Origin: Xanthobacteraceae bacterium 501b
GTDB taxonomy: Bacteria; Pseudomonadota; Alphaproteobacteria; Rhizobiales; Xanthobacteraceae
Reading direction: 5' to 3'
Length of the DNA: 64,000 bases
NCBI GenBank assembly: GCA_000378025.1
Contig: KB899087.1
Coordinates: 3,348,001-3,412,000, forward strand
Positions within the stretch are counted from its first letter, which is position 1, and each line of letters begins with the position of its first letter. Shown here in pieces: positions 27,045 through 33,661 of this stretch. The notes beneath the pieces were generated by a model. The model saw only the letters and a program-made list of their open reading frames with translations, ran no database searches and was not told the origin of the DNA. Position numbers and translations under genes: made by a program.

Positions 27045-27345
27045 CTTACCTCTCCTTCGGTTGATACTTGCTCGATCGACCTGTGTTATGACTTTCCTCT
27101 TGGTAACAGTCGCGCCTCATCCGGGCCACTCAATTAACGTTGACGCTTTTTAGCTCACAACGGTTTGAGCAAGGGGTTTCCGCAGCGCGGCGCCGCCCTA
27201 ACCGCGCTGCCAGGCGCGCCGGTCGAAACCGCGCCGCTGGACGCGCGGTCGGAAAGGCCGAATGCGACGACCAGCGCCCGGCCAGAGTGCGTGGAGGATT
27301 GCGACATTGACCGCCGGCATGCGCCTTAGCGCAAAGCGCGGGGGA
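27045..27345. other. Gene-free stretch at the left edge of the second accessory block
   Basis: About 300 bases. AT-richer near 27060-27180, then GC-rich toward the deacetylase gene. A 73-residue minus-strand frame (27198-27419) overlaps the end of that gene and is Arg/Pro-rich; I treat it as a shadow or a remnant. I see no RNA gene or clear terminator here. Confidence 0.4.
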
Positions 27346-28140
27346 TCAAAGGCAAGGGGCACCAGCCAGAGAACCCGCCTGGCGCGCCGCGCCGTCCGCC
27401 TCGGCCAGACGCTTCGCATAGGGCTGGCAGTTTGCGGCCGCCTCGCGGCGCAGGAGGGATGATCGCCCGTCCAGAAAGCGATCGATCAGGTCCAGCCGGT
27501 CTGGCACGAGTTCCGGCGTCCACCAGATGGGATGCGTCAGTAATTGCATCGCAGCCCTGGCGCGGAAAGCCTCTCTATCGAGCGGATGACCAAACCTGAA
27601 AGCTCCCTGGCTATCACTGCAATACGCAACATCTGAAAAGAACTTTGGCTGATACGTATGCTGACGACCCGCTAGACAATTCGACATCGCCAAAAGCGAA
27701 TTGGCCGGCCGATGAAAACTTATCGAGGTGACGGGCCGCGAGACGATGCTTTCAAGAATGACGCACTCCCAATGCGCGGCAGCCTGCAGAACATCGGCTC
27801 GATCTTCGTAACGGGCAGCATCGAAATGAAGCCCTATCTCGTGCCCGAGATCGCGGATCTTCTCCACTATTTCGAGATCTGAATGGGAACAAATATTGTA
27901 GAACTCCGTCCTCAAAAGAACGAAATAATGAGCTGATACCCCTTCCGCCTCGATGAGCGCTATGTCGAGAGCCTTGCTAAGTGAAAAATCAATATCGTGA
28001 CGAATGATGACATGAGTCTGAGTCGGATCAAATTCGCCATAACTAACTGCTCTATATCCGGCATTCAGGAATTCTTGAATCAGAAGCGAATAATCAGTCC
28101 ATGTGAAACCGCGTGGCAGAACGGAATTAGGACTGGCCAC
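27346..28140 (-). CDS. Polysaccharide deacetylase-like protein (264 aa)
   Basis: Metal-dependent deacetylase fold of the NodB type: IIRHDIDFS supplies the metal Asp, HEIGLHFDA the His pair, and SFHRPAN and THPIWWTPE follow in the expected order. GTG 28140 has GGAG six bases upstream and begins nine bases after the stop of the LpxD-like gene, so the two form an operon. GC content falls well below the surroundings in the 5' two thirds. The likely job is removal of acyl groups from a surface glycan. Confidence 0.75.
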   Translation of the reverse strand: MASPNSVLPRGFTWTDYSLLIQEFLNAGYRAVSYGEFDPTQTHVIIRHDIDFSLSKALDIALIEAEGVSAHYFVLLRTEFYNICSHSDLEIVEKIRDLGHEIGLHFDAARYEDRADVLQAAAHWECVILESIVSRPVTSISFHRPANSLLAMSNCLAGRQHTYQPKFFSDVAYCSDSQGAFRFGHPLDREAFRARAAMQLLTHPIWWTPELVPDRLDLIDRFLDGRSSLLRREAAANCQPYAKRLAEADGAARQAGSLAGAPCL

Positions 28141-28149
28141 TGAAGGCTC

Positions 28150-29061
28150 CTACAGTCTCTTGATGAGGCGGGCCGGCACTCCTGCGACAACGGTATTCGG
28201 CTCCACCGACTTTGTCACGGCCGCACCAAGACCGACGACCGCGCCCGCACCAATCTCAAGTTTCTGCAAGATCGCCGCATTGGGCGCGACCCACGCACGA
28301 TCTCCAATCGTTACGCTTCCGCTGATCTCGCTACAGGCGATGATCTGACAGTTTCGGCCAATGCGAACATTATGGGCGACATGGACCAGATTGTCGATCA
28401 TCGTGTAGTCGCCAATAGTCGTCGGCTCAATGGTTCCCGATGCAACAGCCGTGAAGTTTCCGATCTGGACAAAATCGCCGACAACGACGCCTCCGAGATG
28501 GGGCATCCTGAAAAGATTGCCATTCGTATCCGTCTCAACACCGAAACCGTCCTCACCGAGAACGGCATGAGAAAATATAACGCAATTTCTTCCTATTGTA
28601 ACGTTTCTCGAAAAGACAACATGCCGGTGAATGACACTACCGGGCCCAACAACGCAATCCGGCCCAATAATGCTATACTCACCTATCGTTGCGGTTTCAT
28701 CAATTCTAGCGGATGGATGTATGATCGACGTCGGATGAATACCCGAAAAAGAAGAGGCGACAAAAAATTCGGCCGCAACCTGCGCAAAGGCCAGCCGAGG
28801 ATTGTCTACCAGAATTAGCAAACCTTCCGAATCCGGCACCACCGAAGAGCCCGCCGGCGCGAGAAGCACGGAGCCGCGGGGAACGAGCCCACTGGCGGCC
28901 TCGCTCGGCGCTGTCTTTGTAAAAGCAATCCCGCCTTCAACCAGCGCATTTGACGTACAAACACGCCGTACCGAGAATTCTCCCGCCTCTCCAATCAGCG
29001 TAGCGCCAAATTTCCGCATACAAAATTCAGCGATTTTTTTCGACGACGCGACTTTTGTCAT
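28150..29061 (-). CDS. LpxD-like UDP-acylglucosamine N-acyltransferase paralogue (303 aa)
   Basis: The C-terminal 200 residues are left-handed beta-helix hexapeptide repeats (IHPSARIDETATIGEYSIIG onward), with the LpxD landmark HAVLGEDGFGVE and then HVAHNVRIG. The N-terminal domain resembles LpxD but is divergent. At about 303 residues it is shorter than the usual LpxD (about 340). Because the composition is atypical and there are no lpxA, fabZ or lpxB neighbours, I read it as an accessory acyltransferase for surface sugar modification rather than the housekeeping lipid A enzyme. Confidence 0.75.
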   Translation of the reverse strand: MTKVASSKKIAEFCMRKFGATLIGEAGEFSVRRVCTSNALVEGGIAFTKTAPSEAASGLVPRGSVLLAPAGSSVVPDSEGLLILVDNPRLAFAQVAAEFFVASSFSGIHPTSIIHPSARIDETATIGEYSIIGPDCVVGPGSVIHRHVVFSRNVTIGRNCVIFSHAVLGEDGFGVETDTNGNLFRMPHLGGVVVGDFVQIGNFTAVASGTIEPTTIGDYTMIDNLVHVAHNVRIGRNCQIIACSEISGSVTIGDRAWVAPNAAILQKLEIGAGAVVGLGAAVTKSVEPNTVVAGVPARLIKRL

Positions 29062-29272
29062 GTCCTGACCTCATCGGTTCTCCATCAGGCCCGCGTGCAT
29101 CGCAGCAAAAACTGATGAGTCATCACCAAACCTGGCGTCAAATCGCGCCTATACGCCACCTTCATACCATCGCCTTTGCGCGAGATAAACGATGCGGGCG
29201 GAGAGAACGGCTTCGCGCTCGCGCGCGTAATCATTGAGATCTGTGGTCCGCCCGCCCGCGCTGTCCCACCCC

Positions 29273-29304: not shown

Positions 29305-29408
29305 GGCGGGAGGTTGGCGGTGGACGAGCCACTCGCCAACCGGGTCAGGTCCGGAAGGAAGCAGCCCCAACGAGCCCGGATCGGGTCTCTGTCCAGCCTC
29401 CCACCCTT
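29305..29408 (+). ncRNA. ffs: Small signal recognition particle RNA (4.5S type)
   Basis: The universally conserved domain IV loop GTCAGGTCCGGAAGGAAGCA is at 29344-29363. The 5' GGGAGGTTG (29308-29316) pairs with CAGCCTCCC (29394-29402) to close the long hairpin. The RNA binds Ffh and targets membrane proteins. In many Rhizobiales ffs sits directly before dnaX; here more than 2 kb of accessory and degenerate sequence separate them. Confidence 0.96.
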
Positions 29409-29410
29409 CT

Positions 29411-29422
29411 CCCCCCCCCCCC
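29411..29422 (+). repeat. Run of 12 cytosines
   Basis: A C12 homopolymer directly after the SRP RNA. It is noncoding, so phase variation of a protein is not implied, but the length is likely to be unstable and error-prone in sequencing. A second run, of seven C, lies near 29490. Confidence 0.9.
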
Positions 29423-29680
29423 CGGCGATTAGGTTCGCCGCATGCGGGCATATCGGGACTAGGAGACGCTCAGACCTTCCGGCTGCCCCCCCATTTTTCC
29501 GACTACCTAACCGTCTATGCCGAAACGCTCACATTTGAACGGGCGCGGTTTGCATGTATTGATATGATGACAGGAAATGAGGACGTGACACGGCCGAGGC
29601 GTCCAACGGAGTCACGCTGAAGAGACACAGTCCCGCCTTTCGCCGATGCCGATTTTGCAAGCCGACTTTCGGGGAAGTTG

Positions 29681-30391
29681 ATGATATCGGAAGATGATTT
29701 TGACATTGCCGGCGACACTGCGCCCGACCTAGCGTTTGTGCGCCTTGAAAGAAAATTCCGGACCGCTTACACGCAAAACATTAGCCAATCAGAAAGCAGC
29801 TCTTCGTACAACTTTTACACGCTTGAGTATATTAATCACACAATAGCCGCCGCGACAGCTCTTGAAATTGATTTGCTTAGATATTTTAGGATAGAAAATA
29901 TAAAAGAATCGGATATTTTCGACAACTATCGATCCATAAGGCAGATTGTCGATGAATTTTCTGTTCAGGTTCAAATAAAATACGCACGAGAAAAATCATA
30001 TAATAAGACCTTACTTAACGATAATGAAAAAACCAAATTAAGATCGTACGTTAATAAAATTAAAGAAATAATTGATAAATCAAATTTAATTAATTCAAAA
30101 AAAGAGAGACTTTTTAATAGAATAAATGAATTCCTTGACGAACTGGACAAAGACAGAACCTCGCTTCAGAGATTTACTGACATAGTACTCACGCTCTGCA
30201 CTACGGCAGCGGACGCGGCCGAAGAACTCGAACCTACATGGAAATGGGTTCGACTAGCAGGTGAAGTTCTAGGCGCTCGAAAGGAGAAAGAGACCGAAAA
30301 ATTGCCTCCTCCGCCAAAAAGAATCGAACCCCCGCGACCAAAGTCCTTGGAGCATAAAGACTCCGATGTAGACGATGAGATCCCATTCTAA
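29681..30391 (+). CDS. Orphan protein with proline-rich linker and SSB-like C-terminal tail (236 aa)
   Basis: Not recognised as a named family. ATG 29681 follows GGGGA; TTG 29678 is the alternative. Residues 1-195 are mainly helical and Lys/Asn/Glu-rich with AT-rich codons, very unlike the flanking genes, so it was probably acquired. After a hydrophobic helix (FTDIVLTLCTTAADAAEEL) comes a Pro-rich linker (KLPPPPKRIEPPRPK) and the final residues DSDVDDEIPF. The last six match the acidic tip of bacterial SSB (DDDIPF), which docks SSB-binding repair and replication proteins. SSB mimicry is inference. It lies between ffs and dnaX and ends in a terminator. Confidence 0.7.
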   Translation: MISEDDFDIAGDTAPDLAFVRLERKFRTAYTQNISQSESSSSYNFYTLEYINHTIAAATALEIDLLRYFRIENIKESDIFDNYRSIRQIVDEFSVQVQIKYAREKSYNKTLLNDNEKTKLRSYVNKIKEIIDKSNLINSKKERLFNRINEFLDELDKDRTSLQRFTDIVLTLCTTAADAAEELEPTWKWVRLAGEVLGARKEKETEKLPPPPKRIEPPRPKSLEHKDSDVDDEIPF

Positions 30392-30412
30392 CGCAAATGG
30401 GGGCTCTTTTTC
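30382..30412 (+). terminator. Rho-independent terminator overlapping the stop of the SSB-tail gene
   Basis: CCCATT (30382-30387) and AATGGG (30396-30401) form a six-pair stem followed by GGCTCTTTTT. The stem includes the last codons and the TAA stop of the gene, a compact arrangement common in acquired genes. Confidence 0.6.
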
Positions 30413-30447
30413 CGGCCAAGCCCTACTCGCCCCCGCACTGGGCGTGA

Positions 30448-31545
30448 TCGCTGGGCACGCCCTGGCGGATCGTCAGCCCGCAAGCCTTCGGCACCACCCA
30501 GCCCGGCACCTTCATCATCACCGGCTACAAGAGCGGCTATTTCTGGGGCGAGGGGCTGCGGCCCGATGGCACCGCCTTCACCTTGCTCGGCTCGAGCACG
30601 CCGGAAGGGCGGGTGCTGTTCAACACCCTCACCGATGGCGAACTCGGCAGCCTCTATGGCGGCATCGAGGGCGACGCATCGAGCGCGCAGATGCTGCTCG
30701 GCACCTATGATTCCTCCGCCGTGTTCACCGGCGATATCACCGTGACCTCGCTCGTGCGCCCCTATGCGCAGACCGTGGCGGCGACCGGCACCACCGCCGC
30801 GGTCGGTGCCGCCCGCACGCTCTACGCCGTCGCCGGCACCACGAACGGCCTGTTCGGGGCGATGGCGCCGGTCACGCTCACGCTCAACGAACTTGAGGGC
30901 CCGGCCCTGTCGGGCGCGATCAGCCAGACCCTGCCGGTGCTGGCCGGCGCCGCCACCGAGGCGACCGCGAACGTCCAGCGCATGCTGGGGCAGGTCGTGA
31001 CCGAGCGCCTCGACGCCCCCGACCGCTCGGACAGCAGCACCCGCGCCTGGGTGCGGCCGCTCGGCGGCGGCGGCCAGCAGGGCGCGATCGGCGGCGTGCC
31101 CGGTTACAGCTTCGGCGGCGGCGCCGCTTTCGGCGTCGACCGGAGCTTTGACGGGCAAGGCCGCGCCGGCGCGCTCTTCGCCTTCACCTCCACCAGCGTC
31201 ACCGCCGACACCGACGCCGCGCGGGCCAATCTCGCCTCCGGCTCGGCCAATCTGCGCTCCTACCTTCTCGGTGCCTATGGCAGCACTGCGCTGGCCGGCG
31301 GGCGCAACCTCGCGGTGGAGGGCCAGACCACTCGCAAGCTGTTCGTCTCCGGCGAGCTGGCGCTGCGCCACGCGCTGACCGAAATACCGGGCGCCGACCT
31401 CTCGCCCTGGCTGTTCACCGCCGGGGTGGGGCTCGTCGCTGCGGGTTCCGATACCCTCAGCTTCGATACCCCCTACGATGTTGAGGCGAGCCCGTCCGCC
31501 TATCTCAACCAGACCGGCTCGGTCGCGGTGACGTGGCGGCTGTAG
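30448..31545 (+). pseudogene. Autotransporter remnant: 3' passenger end and beta-domain, 5' part missing
   Basis: An open frame without a valid start runs from 30448 (a TGA precedes it) to TAG 31545. Early residues such as GYFWGEGLRPDGTAF and TPEGRVLFN look like a passenger tail. From about 31030 it resembles an autotransporter barrel (RAWVRPLGGGGQQ, VPGYSFGGGAAFGVDR, AGALFAFTSTSV). The barrel looks too short and ends in TWRL instead of the usual terminal aromatic, so an internal deletion is also likely. The 5' part may have been lost when the AT-rich gene upstream arrived. Codons are GC-rich and native in style. Confidence 0.7.
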
Positions 31546-31669
31546 CGCACCGGAAGCACGGGCGCACCGGATGGAGCGCCGCCGCGCCTTCCCTCCCGTC
31601 CCCGGAAATTTGCCCGTCCCGTCATTGCGCCGTTGTGCCCTGCCCCGCCGGCGATGCTATGAAGGGGCC

Positions 31670-33661
31670 ATGAGCGCCGACACCCCCGACATGTCCGACC
31701 CGACTGATATGGCCGATGACGGGCCGGGCTTCGACCTCGGCCCGGCGCCGAGCGTGCCGGCCGTGCCGCCCGCCGCGCCGGTGACGCCCTATCGCGTGCT
31801 CGCCCGCAAATACCGGCCGCAGACCTTCGCCGATCTGATCGGCCAGGAGGCGATGGTCCGCACGCTGAGCAACGCCTTCACCTCGGGGCGCATCGCGCAG
31901 GCCTATATCCTCACCGGGGTGCGCGGCGTCGGCAAGACCACCACCGCCCGCATCCTCGCCCGCGCGCTCAACTACGAGCCGGCCGACGGCCCCGTCGGCG
32001 GCGGGCAGCCGACGCTGGACATGCCGGTGCTCGGCCGCCACTGCCGCGACATCATCGAGAGCCGCCATGTCGACGTGCAGGAGATGGACGCCGCGTCCAA
32101 TACCGGCATCGGCGACATTCGCGAGATCATCGAGGCGGCGCGCTACAAGCCGGTACTGGCGCGCTACAAGGTCTTCATCATCGACGAAGTGCACATGCTC
32201 TCCACGGCGGCCTTCAACGGGCTGCTGAAGACGCTGGAAGAGCCGCCCGAGCATGTGAAGTTCATCTTCGCCACCACGGAAATCCGCAAGGTGCCGGTCA
32301 CGGTGCTCTCGCGCACCCAGCGCTTCGATCTGCGCCGGGTCGAGGCCGGCGTGCTGGCGCGCCACCTGCACGGCATCTGCACGGCGGAGGGCGTGAACAT
32401 CGACGCCGAGGCGCTGAGCCTCATCGCCCGCGCGGCGGAAGGCTCGGTGCGCGACGCGCTCTCGCTGCTCGACCAGGCGATCGCCCATTCCGGCGGCCAG
32501 GCAACGGGCGGCATGGTGCATGGCGAGCAGGTGCGGGCGCTGCTCGGCCTCGCCGATCGCGGCCGCGTCATCGACCTGTTCGAGGCGCTGATGAAGGGCG
32601 ACATCGCCCAGGCGCTGACCGAACTGCGCGAGCAATATGATTCCGGCGCCGACCCGGCGGTGGTGATCGCAGATCTCGCCGAATTCACCCATCTCGTCAC
32701 CCGGATGAAGATCCTGCCCGAGACCGGCGACGACGCCGCTCTGGTGGAAGCCGAGCGCACGCGCGGGCGGGATTTCGCCCGCGGCCTGTCGATGCGGGTG
32801 CTCGCGCGCGCCTGGCAGATGCTGACCAAGGGCCTCACCGAGGTGCAGCAGGCGGCCAAGCCGATGCAGGCGGCGGAAATGGTGCTGGTGCGCCTCGCCT
32901 ATGCCAGCGACCTGCCGACCCCGGACGAGGCGCTGCGCCGCCTGCGCGACGGCGCGCCCGAACCGGCCGCCCGGCCTTCCGGTGGTGGCGGCGGAATGGG
33001 CGGCGGTTCAGCAATGAGCTCTGGTGGCGGCTCGGCGATGGCGGCGACCGCCCCGCGCAGCTATGCCGCCCCTGTCTCTGCCCCGGTCTCCGCTCCCTCG
33101 GCCGCCCCCAGCGCGGCGAGCCATCTTTCGGTGGCCTCCCGCAGCGCCCCGCGCCCGGCCGCGCCGACGCCTTCCCCCGCGCCCGCCCCTGTCGCCAGCC
33201 TCGCCGTGGCGACCTTCGAGGATCTGGTCGCGCTCGCCGCCGCCCGGCGCGACCTCAAGCTCAAATTCGCGCTGGAAAACCATCTGCGCCTGGTCGACTT
33301 CGAGGATGGAAGGCTGGAAGTGGCGCTGGCCCCCGGCGGCTCGCCCAATCTGATCCAGGAACTGCAGTCGAAGATTTCCGAATGGACGGGAAAGCGCTGG
33401 CTGGTCGCCCTGTCGCGCGAGGAGGGCGAGCCCACTCTGGCCGAGAAGGCCGCCGCCCAGCGCCATGCGATGATGACCGGCGTGCGCGCCGACCCCTTGG
33501 TGGCGGCGGCGCTGGCCCGTTTTCCCGGCGCCTCGATCGTCGATGTGCGTTCGCTCGCAACCGAAGAGCCTGCCGGCGACTTCACCACCGATACCAACGA
33601 CGCCGATCTGATGGCCGCCCGCGATGACGGGCCGGGCGCGGACGACGAGATCGAGTTCTGA
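31670..33661 (+). CDS. dnaX: DNA polymerase III subunits gamma/tau DnaX (663 aa)
   Basis: Clamp-loader ATPase. Walker A GVRGVGKTTTAR, Walker B FIIDEVHMLS, sensor 1 FATTEIRKVPVTVLSRTQRF and GSVRDALSLLDQ are all present. The zinc-binding cysteines of most DnaX proteins are missing here (only GRHC remains), which is usual for Rhizobiales. A Gly/Ser/Ala/Pro-rich linker (about 420-500) precedes the tau-specific region. I start at ATG 31670, just after AAGGGG. The protein ends GADDEIEF, faintly like an SSB tail. It is followed after 14 bases by ybaB. Confidence 0.95.
   Translation: MSADTPDMSDPTDMADDGPGFDLGPAPSVPAVPPAAPVTPYRVLARKYRPQTFADLIGQEAMVRTLSNAFTSGRIAQAYILTGVRGVGKTTTARILARALNYEPADGPVGGGQPTLDMPVLGRHCRDIIESRHVDVQEMDAASNTGIGDIREIIEAARYKPVLARYKVFIIDEVHMLSTAAFNGLLKTLEEPPEHVKFIFATTEIRKVPVTVLSRTQRFDLRRVEAGVLARHLHGICTAEGVNIDAEALSLIARAAEGSVRDALSLLDQAIAHSGGQATGGMVHGEQVRALLGLADRGRVIDLFEALMKGDIAQALTELREQYDSGADPAVVIADLAEFTHLVTRMKILPETGDDAALVEAERTRGRDFARGLSMRVLARAWQMLTKGLTEVQQAAKPMQAAEMVLVRLAYASDLPTPDEALRRLRDGAPEPAARPSGGGGGMGGGSAMSSGGGSAMAATAPRSYAAPVSAPVSAPSAAPSAASHLSVASRSAPRPAAPTPSPAPAPVASLAVATFEDLVALAAARRDLKLKFALENHLRLVDFEDGRLEVALAPGGSPNLIQELQSKISEWTGKRWLVALSREEGEPTLAEKAAAQRHAMMTGVRADPLVAAALARFPGASIVDVRSLATEEPAGDFTTDTNDADLMAARDDGPGADDEIEF

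Follow-up and report, generated by a model that had tools for sequence, protein, structure and literature searches.

In E. coli the C-terminal tail of SSB contacts about 20 proteins of DNA metabolism, and the docking mode seen with RecG, which is common to the partners, places the terminal Phe of the tail in a hydrophobic pocket and its carboxyl group on a basic lip, while a basic ridge receives the Asp residues (PMC10164576, in the portion of the article available). According to the same portion, loss of the Phe or a change of the Pro weakens or abolishes binding of the tip (PMC10164576). SSB tips are known, and so are defence systems reacting to the SSB of phages, the latter from the accessible parts of two reports (PMC10732053, PMC13381803). 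A search of the open-licence literature found no paper on a family of SSB-tail mimics, and the papers in it that contain DDDIPF concern, in the text available from them, SSB, SSB partners or DinG (e.g. PMC11981726). What is apparently new is a conserved family of stand-alone proteins in which the tip occurs apart from SSB.

The locus described here lies in a 64-kb stretch of DNA that was analysed as a whole and is referred to below as the window. It holds a gene, here called the SSB-tip gene, whose product is identical in its last six residues to the SSB of the same host, which ends in GGGDLDDEIPF.

The SSB-tip gene and its insertion

The original prediction of an AT-rich gene with a terminal DVDDEIPF was borne out. 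The open reading frame has a GC content of 39.7%, against 68.0% in the window, and this drops to 31% in its interior (29800–30200); among 633 stretches as long as the gene (step 100, across the 64 kb), none had a GC content this low. The C-terminus of the 236-aa protein reads ...SLEHKDSDVDDEIPF, with DVDDEIPF as the final eight residues. A helical body followed by a proline-rich linker had also been proposed, and this architecture is supported by an AlphaFold2 model (m775f4517ac47, from alignment A6 of 11 sequences), which is predicted to be helical with a mean pLDDT of 73.6 and a pTM of 0.52 (Table 1). Residues 213–231 have pLDDT values below 50; this low confidence in the tail fits a flexible tail, and the linker is probably disordered.

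Table 1 Features of the SSB-tip locus, numbered from the first position of the window
Feature	Position	Strand	Remarks
ffs (bacterial small SRP RNA)	29308–29405	+	Rfam RF00169, 60.3 bits, E 5.6e-12; left flank of insertion
Acquired segment, about 1.03 kb (1,026 bp)	29407–30432		blastn against G009 and G002
SSB-tip protein gene	29681–30391	+	236 aa; ATG at 29681, with TTG at 29678 as possible alternative start
Helical body (predicted)	29723–30289	+	Residues about 15–203; AlphaFold2 model
Helices of the body (predicted)			Residues 15–35, 40–60, 76–104, 114–133, 138–155, 162–176 and 180–203; AlphaFold2
Proline/lysine/glutamate-rich linker	30293–30370	+	Residues 205–230; alignment A5 and low pLDDT
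SSB-type tip DDEIPF and stop	30371–30391	+	One of two such C-termini in the genome; kept in the main clade
Autotransporter remnant, 5'-truncated	30433–31545	+	87.5% identity to G009 over 30433–31280
dnaX (clamp-loader tau/gamma)	31571–33661	+	ORF; Pfam gamma/tau domains; C-terminus GADDEIEF

The surroundings of the gene were compared by blastn with two genomes of the same genus, G002 and G009, both of which possess ffs and dnaX and lack the SSB-tip gene. Homology to the window ends at 29406 (G009) or 29408 (G002) and restarts at 30433 (G009) or 31579 (G002), and the ffs-side and dnaX-side homologies are separated by 51 bp in G002. The acquired segment, in which the SSB-tip gene is the only gene recognised, replaces 734 bp of G009 that belong to the 5' portion of an autotransporter frame. 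That frame, 820 codons from stop to stop, opens upstream of ffs in G009 and runs towards dnaX, and its beta-domain is complete (full Pfam Autotransporter match, E 2.7e-42); the remnant in the window gives a partial match to the same family (profile positions 1–85 of 255, E 1e-8).

The gene had been described as sitting beside dnaX, which proved to be a loose description: ffs precedes it, and the autotransporter remnant separates it from dnaX. None of 30 neighbours of family genes, from the 17 loci scanned, is dnaX, and the closeness to dnaX looks incidental. As a separate observation, DnaX has an acidic tail of its own, DD[D/E][I/L/F][E/D]F, in 16 of 16 same-genus genomes read (the window's own included) and in none of nine others; this tail of the genus is near the SSB tip in sequence, yet distinct from it. 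A lower-GC stretch also lies 5' of ffs, with two genes within 27346–29061, one for a hexapeptide-repeat transferase (28150–29061) and one without a Pfam match (27346–28140). This stretch mostly aligns to G002, while 27201–29268 is unmatched in G009.

Conservation and specificity of the tip

Searched at the codon level, the 5.1-Mb genome has DD[D/E]IPF followed by a stop in two places only, ssb and the SSB-tip gene, and a control pattern had no match. The tip of the 236-aa protein is not a chance occurrence, because these two are the only such C-termini in the genome and because the tip is found again in 25 of the family's 39 loci; the SSB-like tail that had been claimed for this acquired protein is thereby confirmed.

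Conservation of the last residues among homologues, which had been asked for at the outset, was seen over divergent bodies (median pairwise identity 24%). P and F are invariant in all 24 tabulated tips, with D at −6 in 22 and at −5 in 21, I or V at −3 in 23, and D (13), E (10) or K (1) at −4, although these 24 were chosen for ending in the tip. Alignment A5, in which two of the 25 rows are without a tip, is a fairer measure: here P235 stands at 96%, a figure that includes one P (in L047) from unrelated sequence, and F236 at 92%, and both rank in the top six of the 229 columns by conservation (median 36%). The criteria for a ligand of the SSB-Ct type that are given in the available portion of PMC10164576, namely a terminal Phe, a penultimate Pro and acidic residues, are preserved in the tip-bearing members.

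The specificity of this C-terminus was assessed in 61 genomes of the order, in which the tip-stop pattern had 58 matches in 52 genomes and the control none. Of these matches, 53 were SSBs (50 by profile, one contig-edge fragment by eye, and the SSBs of G000 and G153), two belonged to the SSB-tip family and three to other frames; 54 of the 58 were read, the other four being accounted for by G000 and G153, each with its SSB and its family gene. The three other frames are L144 (82 codons), L162 (up to 197 aa) and L148 (276 aa). L162:56-649 (in G150) and L144:1501-1749 (in G120) both end in LDDEIPF and have no Pfam or PADLOC match, and a tblastn search of plasmids with L162 gave no match.

The third frame, L148:691-1521 (in G127), encodes a 276-aa TIR protein of the CAP12/Pycsar type that ends in FDDEIPF, the TIR domain being matched by Pfam (E 2.3e-27) and by a PADLOC TIR effector model (E 2e-44). 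Two plasmid relatives of this protein were read, of which one ends in NDVPF and the other in SFL, unlike the tip.

Distribution and decay of the family

The protein had been taken for an orphan, and a first scan of contigs indeed found no relatives; whole-genome searches, however, did, and 39 distinct family loci were counted. Genomes with a family match, the window's own included, numbered 5 of 200 among relatives, 11 of 397 in the order, 12 of 385 in the class and 6 of 398 in the phylum, counts that include two false matches, a LonB-like protease (G785/L033) and a trigger factor (G1013/L040). With a closer alignment, ten named loci were found, including ones in Methylopila, Mesorhizobium, Dongia, Bradyrhizobium and Acidisphaera, and plasmid-borne copies were found in Methylosinus, Methylobacterium, Methylorubrum and Ensifer. 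Confirmed members are all alphaproteobacterial as far as the data tell; the window's genome and Methylopila turkensis belong to the same order. Five genomes from the order of G621 held no new locus, and with three queries no family match was found in phage genomes or in viral contigs.

The family gene has a lower GC content than its locus in 23 of the 24 loci in which genes were called, the two being equal in L056. Patchy presence, foreign GC content and carriage on plasmids together mark it as an accessory gene. A comparison of 26 loci for common insertion ends (400 bp of upstream and 200 bp of downstream flank; blastn-short, E <= 0.01) found no similarity.

The 39 loci fall into 25 that end in the SSB tip, five that are broken or have lost the tip, and nine divergent relatives without IPF. 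The 25 consist of the 24 tabulated frames, one of which (L026) has a break upstream, in the body, and L036, which is 96% identical to L009. Among the broken copies, L005 is decayed with its tail still readable, L010 and L047 are shifted in the tail, L014 stops in the linker and L019 stops just before IPF, such that in four copies the tip is lost and the body mostly intact. Damage to the tail or linker in four of five broken copies could indicate that carrying the tip has a cost for the host, although the copies are few and some come from draft or metagenome assemblies.

The divergent relatives (L002, L004, L016, L017, L020, L028, L029, L031 and L032, the last apparently broken in the body too) have the body, or its C-terminal half, in common with the family, and the body can therefore persist without the tip. 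Homologues that share the body and lack the IPF tip, which the original prediction held would refute it, do exist, as these nine relatives and the four tip-loss copies, and this goes against the prediction in part; the tip is kept in 25 of the 39 loci. One tip-less branch (L002:1198-1878, L004 and L016) sits between pdhB and the gene for pyruvate dehydrogenase E2 in three genomes, the window's own genome being one of them.

Agreement with the host SSB

At residue −4, the family protein and the SSB have the same choice of D or E in 19 of 22 hosts (11 E/E and 8 D/D). The mismatches are L046 and L051, in which the family has D and the host E, and the copy in G840, which has K. Residue −3 agrees in 18 and the last six residues as a whole in 14 of the 22. 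This set leaves out G214, G266 and the host of L047, which were read but whose family copies lack the tip, and also the hosts of plasmid copies. For hosts with several SSBs the majority state was taken (as in G209, with E, E and D); the host of L051 was read for two of its three SSBs, and the copy in G084 is a decayed one. For the 21 D/E pairs, p in Fisher's test was 2.2e-4 with relatedness ignored. A tree-aware test on the family tree (20 rows) was not significant, with a median p of 0.25; it had four supported independent pairs, which went in the same direction 3.2 times on average and never in the opposite one. Given this median p, host matching at residue −4 is suggestive only.

Searches for a known family or fold

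The window's protein had no match to PF00436, the OB fold of SSB, at E values up to 10, and this family was absent among the best 25 of the 41 Pfam families listed for 25 family members. The NCBIfam SSB model was matched by one of the 25, at E 0.06 only. The single PF00436 protein of the window's genome is encoded elsewhere.

Other searches with the window's protein gave weak matches only in Pfam (best E 0.05) and PHROGs (best E 0.0097), and the sole match in PADLOC was to Cas4b (E 0.0078, 14.4 bits, residues 93–142). When the 25 members were used, the best Pfam match was to HBM (E 2.5e-4, in two of the 25) and the best NCBIfam match had an E value of 0.0022. A sequence search of the PDB reached E 0.032 at best, Foldseek found nothing at E <= 0.001 in the PDB or among viral structures, and the best VIA-align score (Z 10.5 over 95 residues) is in the range noted for generic helical bundles. 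Among the matches listed, none of the identities offered by Pfam, NCBIfam, PADLOC, PHROG or the PDB fits the protein, all matches being weak.

Proposed function and gene neighbourhoods

On balance, we consider it probable that the SSB-tip protein mimics the SSB tail and binds host partners at their SSB-Ct pockets, as a competitor or a recruiter, with conflicts against phages or mobile DNA as the probable setting. In this view the gene is an accessory one, gained by horizontal transfer, for a protein with a helical body in two parts, a flexible linker rich in proline, and a free C-terminal tip that corresponds to the SSB tip; this tip would enter the pocket where SSB-interacting proteins (RecO, PriA, RecG, DnaG and chi/HolC) bind SSB. 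RecQ and others also bind SSB by that pocket. Its occupation would either withhold the partners from SSB-coated ssDNA or bring the body to the partners, and such a protein would most likely have its part in conflicts that involve phages or incoming mobile DNA. Docking of the tip into these pockets is likely, because the tip-bearing members keep the features read in the RecG-type docking mode. Mobility and decay, carriage on plasmids, some of the neighbours and the example of the TIR protein suggest a role in conflict.

The 30 neighbours from 17 loci were compared with Pfam. Two matched no family; the others were mostly ordinary genes, comprising gyrA, an arginyl-tRNA-protein transferase, DapB, IlvD, SelB, transporters and AMP-binding enzymes; further matches were to SRAP, UvrD, HhH-GPD, a resolvase, a caspase-type peptidase and a PIN domain. 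Defence-type or nuclease genes adjoin the family gene in three contexts, two of them recognised with PADLOC, which was run on ten chosen proteins. On a Methylobacterium plasmid, the next gene downstream encodes a type IIG restriction enzyme (PADLOC) and is accompanied by one for a PLD protein, and the annotated neighbours on two further, related plasmids match (type IIG enzyme, PLD protein). In G840, an RT-Toprim gene of retron type lies downstream (PADLOC), and in G1114 a PIN-domain gene follows after 13 bp. At several loci, for example L044, L045, L048, L051 and L055, the family gene is within a longer stretch in which few genes could be called with confidence, and larger islands may be present there. 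At L060:7974-10875, the family gene is located 427 bp upstream of an RT-Toprim gene (retron I-C type); the first 100 bases of the gap have a GC content of 22%, and an Rfam search of the gap found nothing above threshold.

These three contexts bear on a rival reading, according to which the protein is a recruiter and not a competitor. The tip would then tether the body, or an effector bound to the body, to SSB-partner complexes at forks or on phage ssDNA, and the protein would be part of, or accessory to, the neighbouring defence enzymes. The type IIG and PLD genes of the plasmids, the RT-Toprim gene in G840 and the PIN-domain gene in G1114 point this way, as does the presence of the same tip on an unrelated TIR-domain protein. 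Against this, the scanned neighbours are mostly ordinary, and scans with Pfam, PADLOC, PHROGs and NCBIfam found no recognised binding or catalytic domain in the body; we regard a recruiter as possible, if somewhat doubtful. The predominance of ordinary chromosomal genes among the scanned neighbours, a few of them repair-related (SRAP, UvrD, HhH-GPD), would also be consistent with a host helper of repair or recombination that joins repair complexes via its SSB tip and has no part in defence, but the family gene is rare and patchy, foreign in composition, carried on plasmids and frequently decayed, and we think this explanation unlikely. Very improbable is a purpose of the acidic IPF tail other than the partners of SSB, such as binding to its own body or a stability signal, with the likeness to SSB being convergent: the C-termini of several tip-less relatives are acidic strings of another kind (NESED, ESDESDSD, NEDDQ), and to judge from these sequences an acidic tail may be an older feature than the tip, but P-F stands at the carboxyl end of 24 of 24 tabulated tips, the tips agree with the host SSB, and this C-terminus is near-exclusive to SSB.

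For docking of an SSB-tail mimic into the pockets of host partners, the consequences would be several. Natural proteins of this kind, tagged like SSB but lacking SSB itself, would serve directly as probes or inhibitors of the SSB hub and would help to identify the host proteins over which the conflict is fought; they would also connect SSB biology with conflict among mobile genes and their hosts. More tentatively, mimicry of the SSB tail could be a general device for targeting or jamming among bacterial conflict genes; unrelated mobile proteins, such as the helical family and the TIR-domain protein, would then have taken on the SSB tip of the host to gain entry to the SSB interaction hub, with a tip that is tuned to the host SSB.

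Comparison with known systems

The SSB-tip protein resembles the C-terminus of SSB in having a flexible linker, an acidic stretch and I/V-P-F at a free C-terminus. It differs from SSB in that no OB fold was found in it and in that its linker is proline-rich, not glycine-rich; moreover, ssb is a universal gene, whereas the SSB-tip gene is a patchy accessory one. AbpAB, Hna, Hachiman, Nhi and Retron-Eco8 make SSB, or ssDNA bound by SSB, part of their anti-phage action, but in the accessible parts of the two reports they respond to phage-encoded SSB, and no SSB tip is described in them there (PMC13381803, PMC10732053). The TIR protein L148 has the DDEIPF C-terminus in common with the SSB-tip family, to which it is unrelated and from which it differs in having a TIR domain. 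Some proteins borrow the docking motif of the sliding clamp or of another hub. Like them, members of the SSB-tip family would gain access to a replication hub by means of a short motif; unlike them, they would use SSB's own motif on SSB's own partners.
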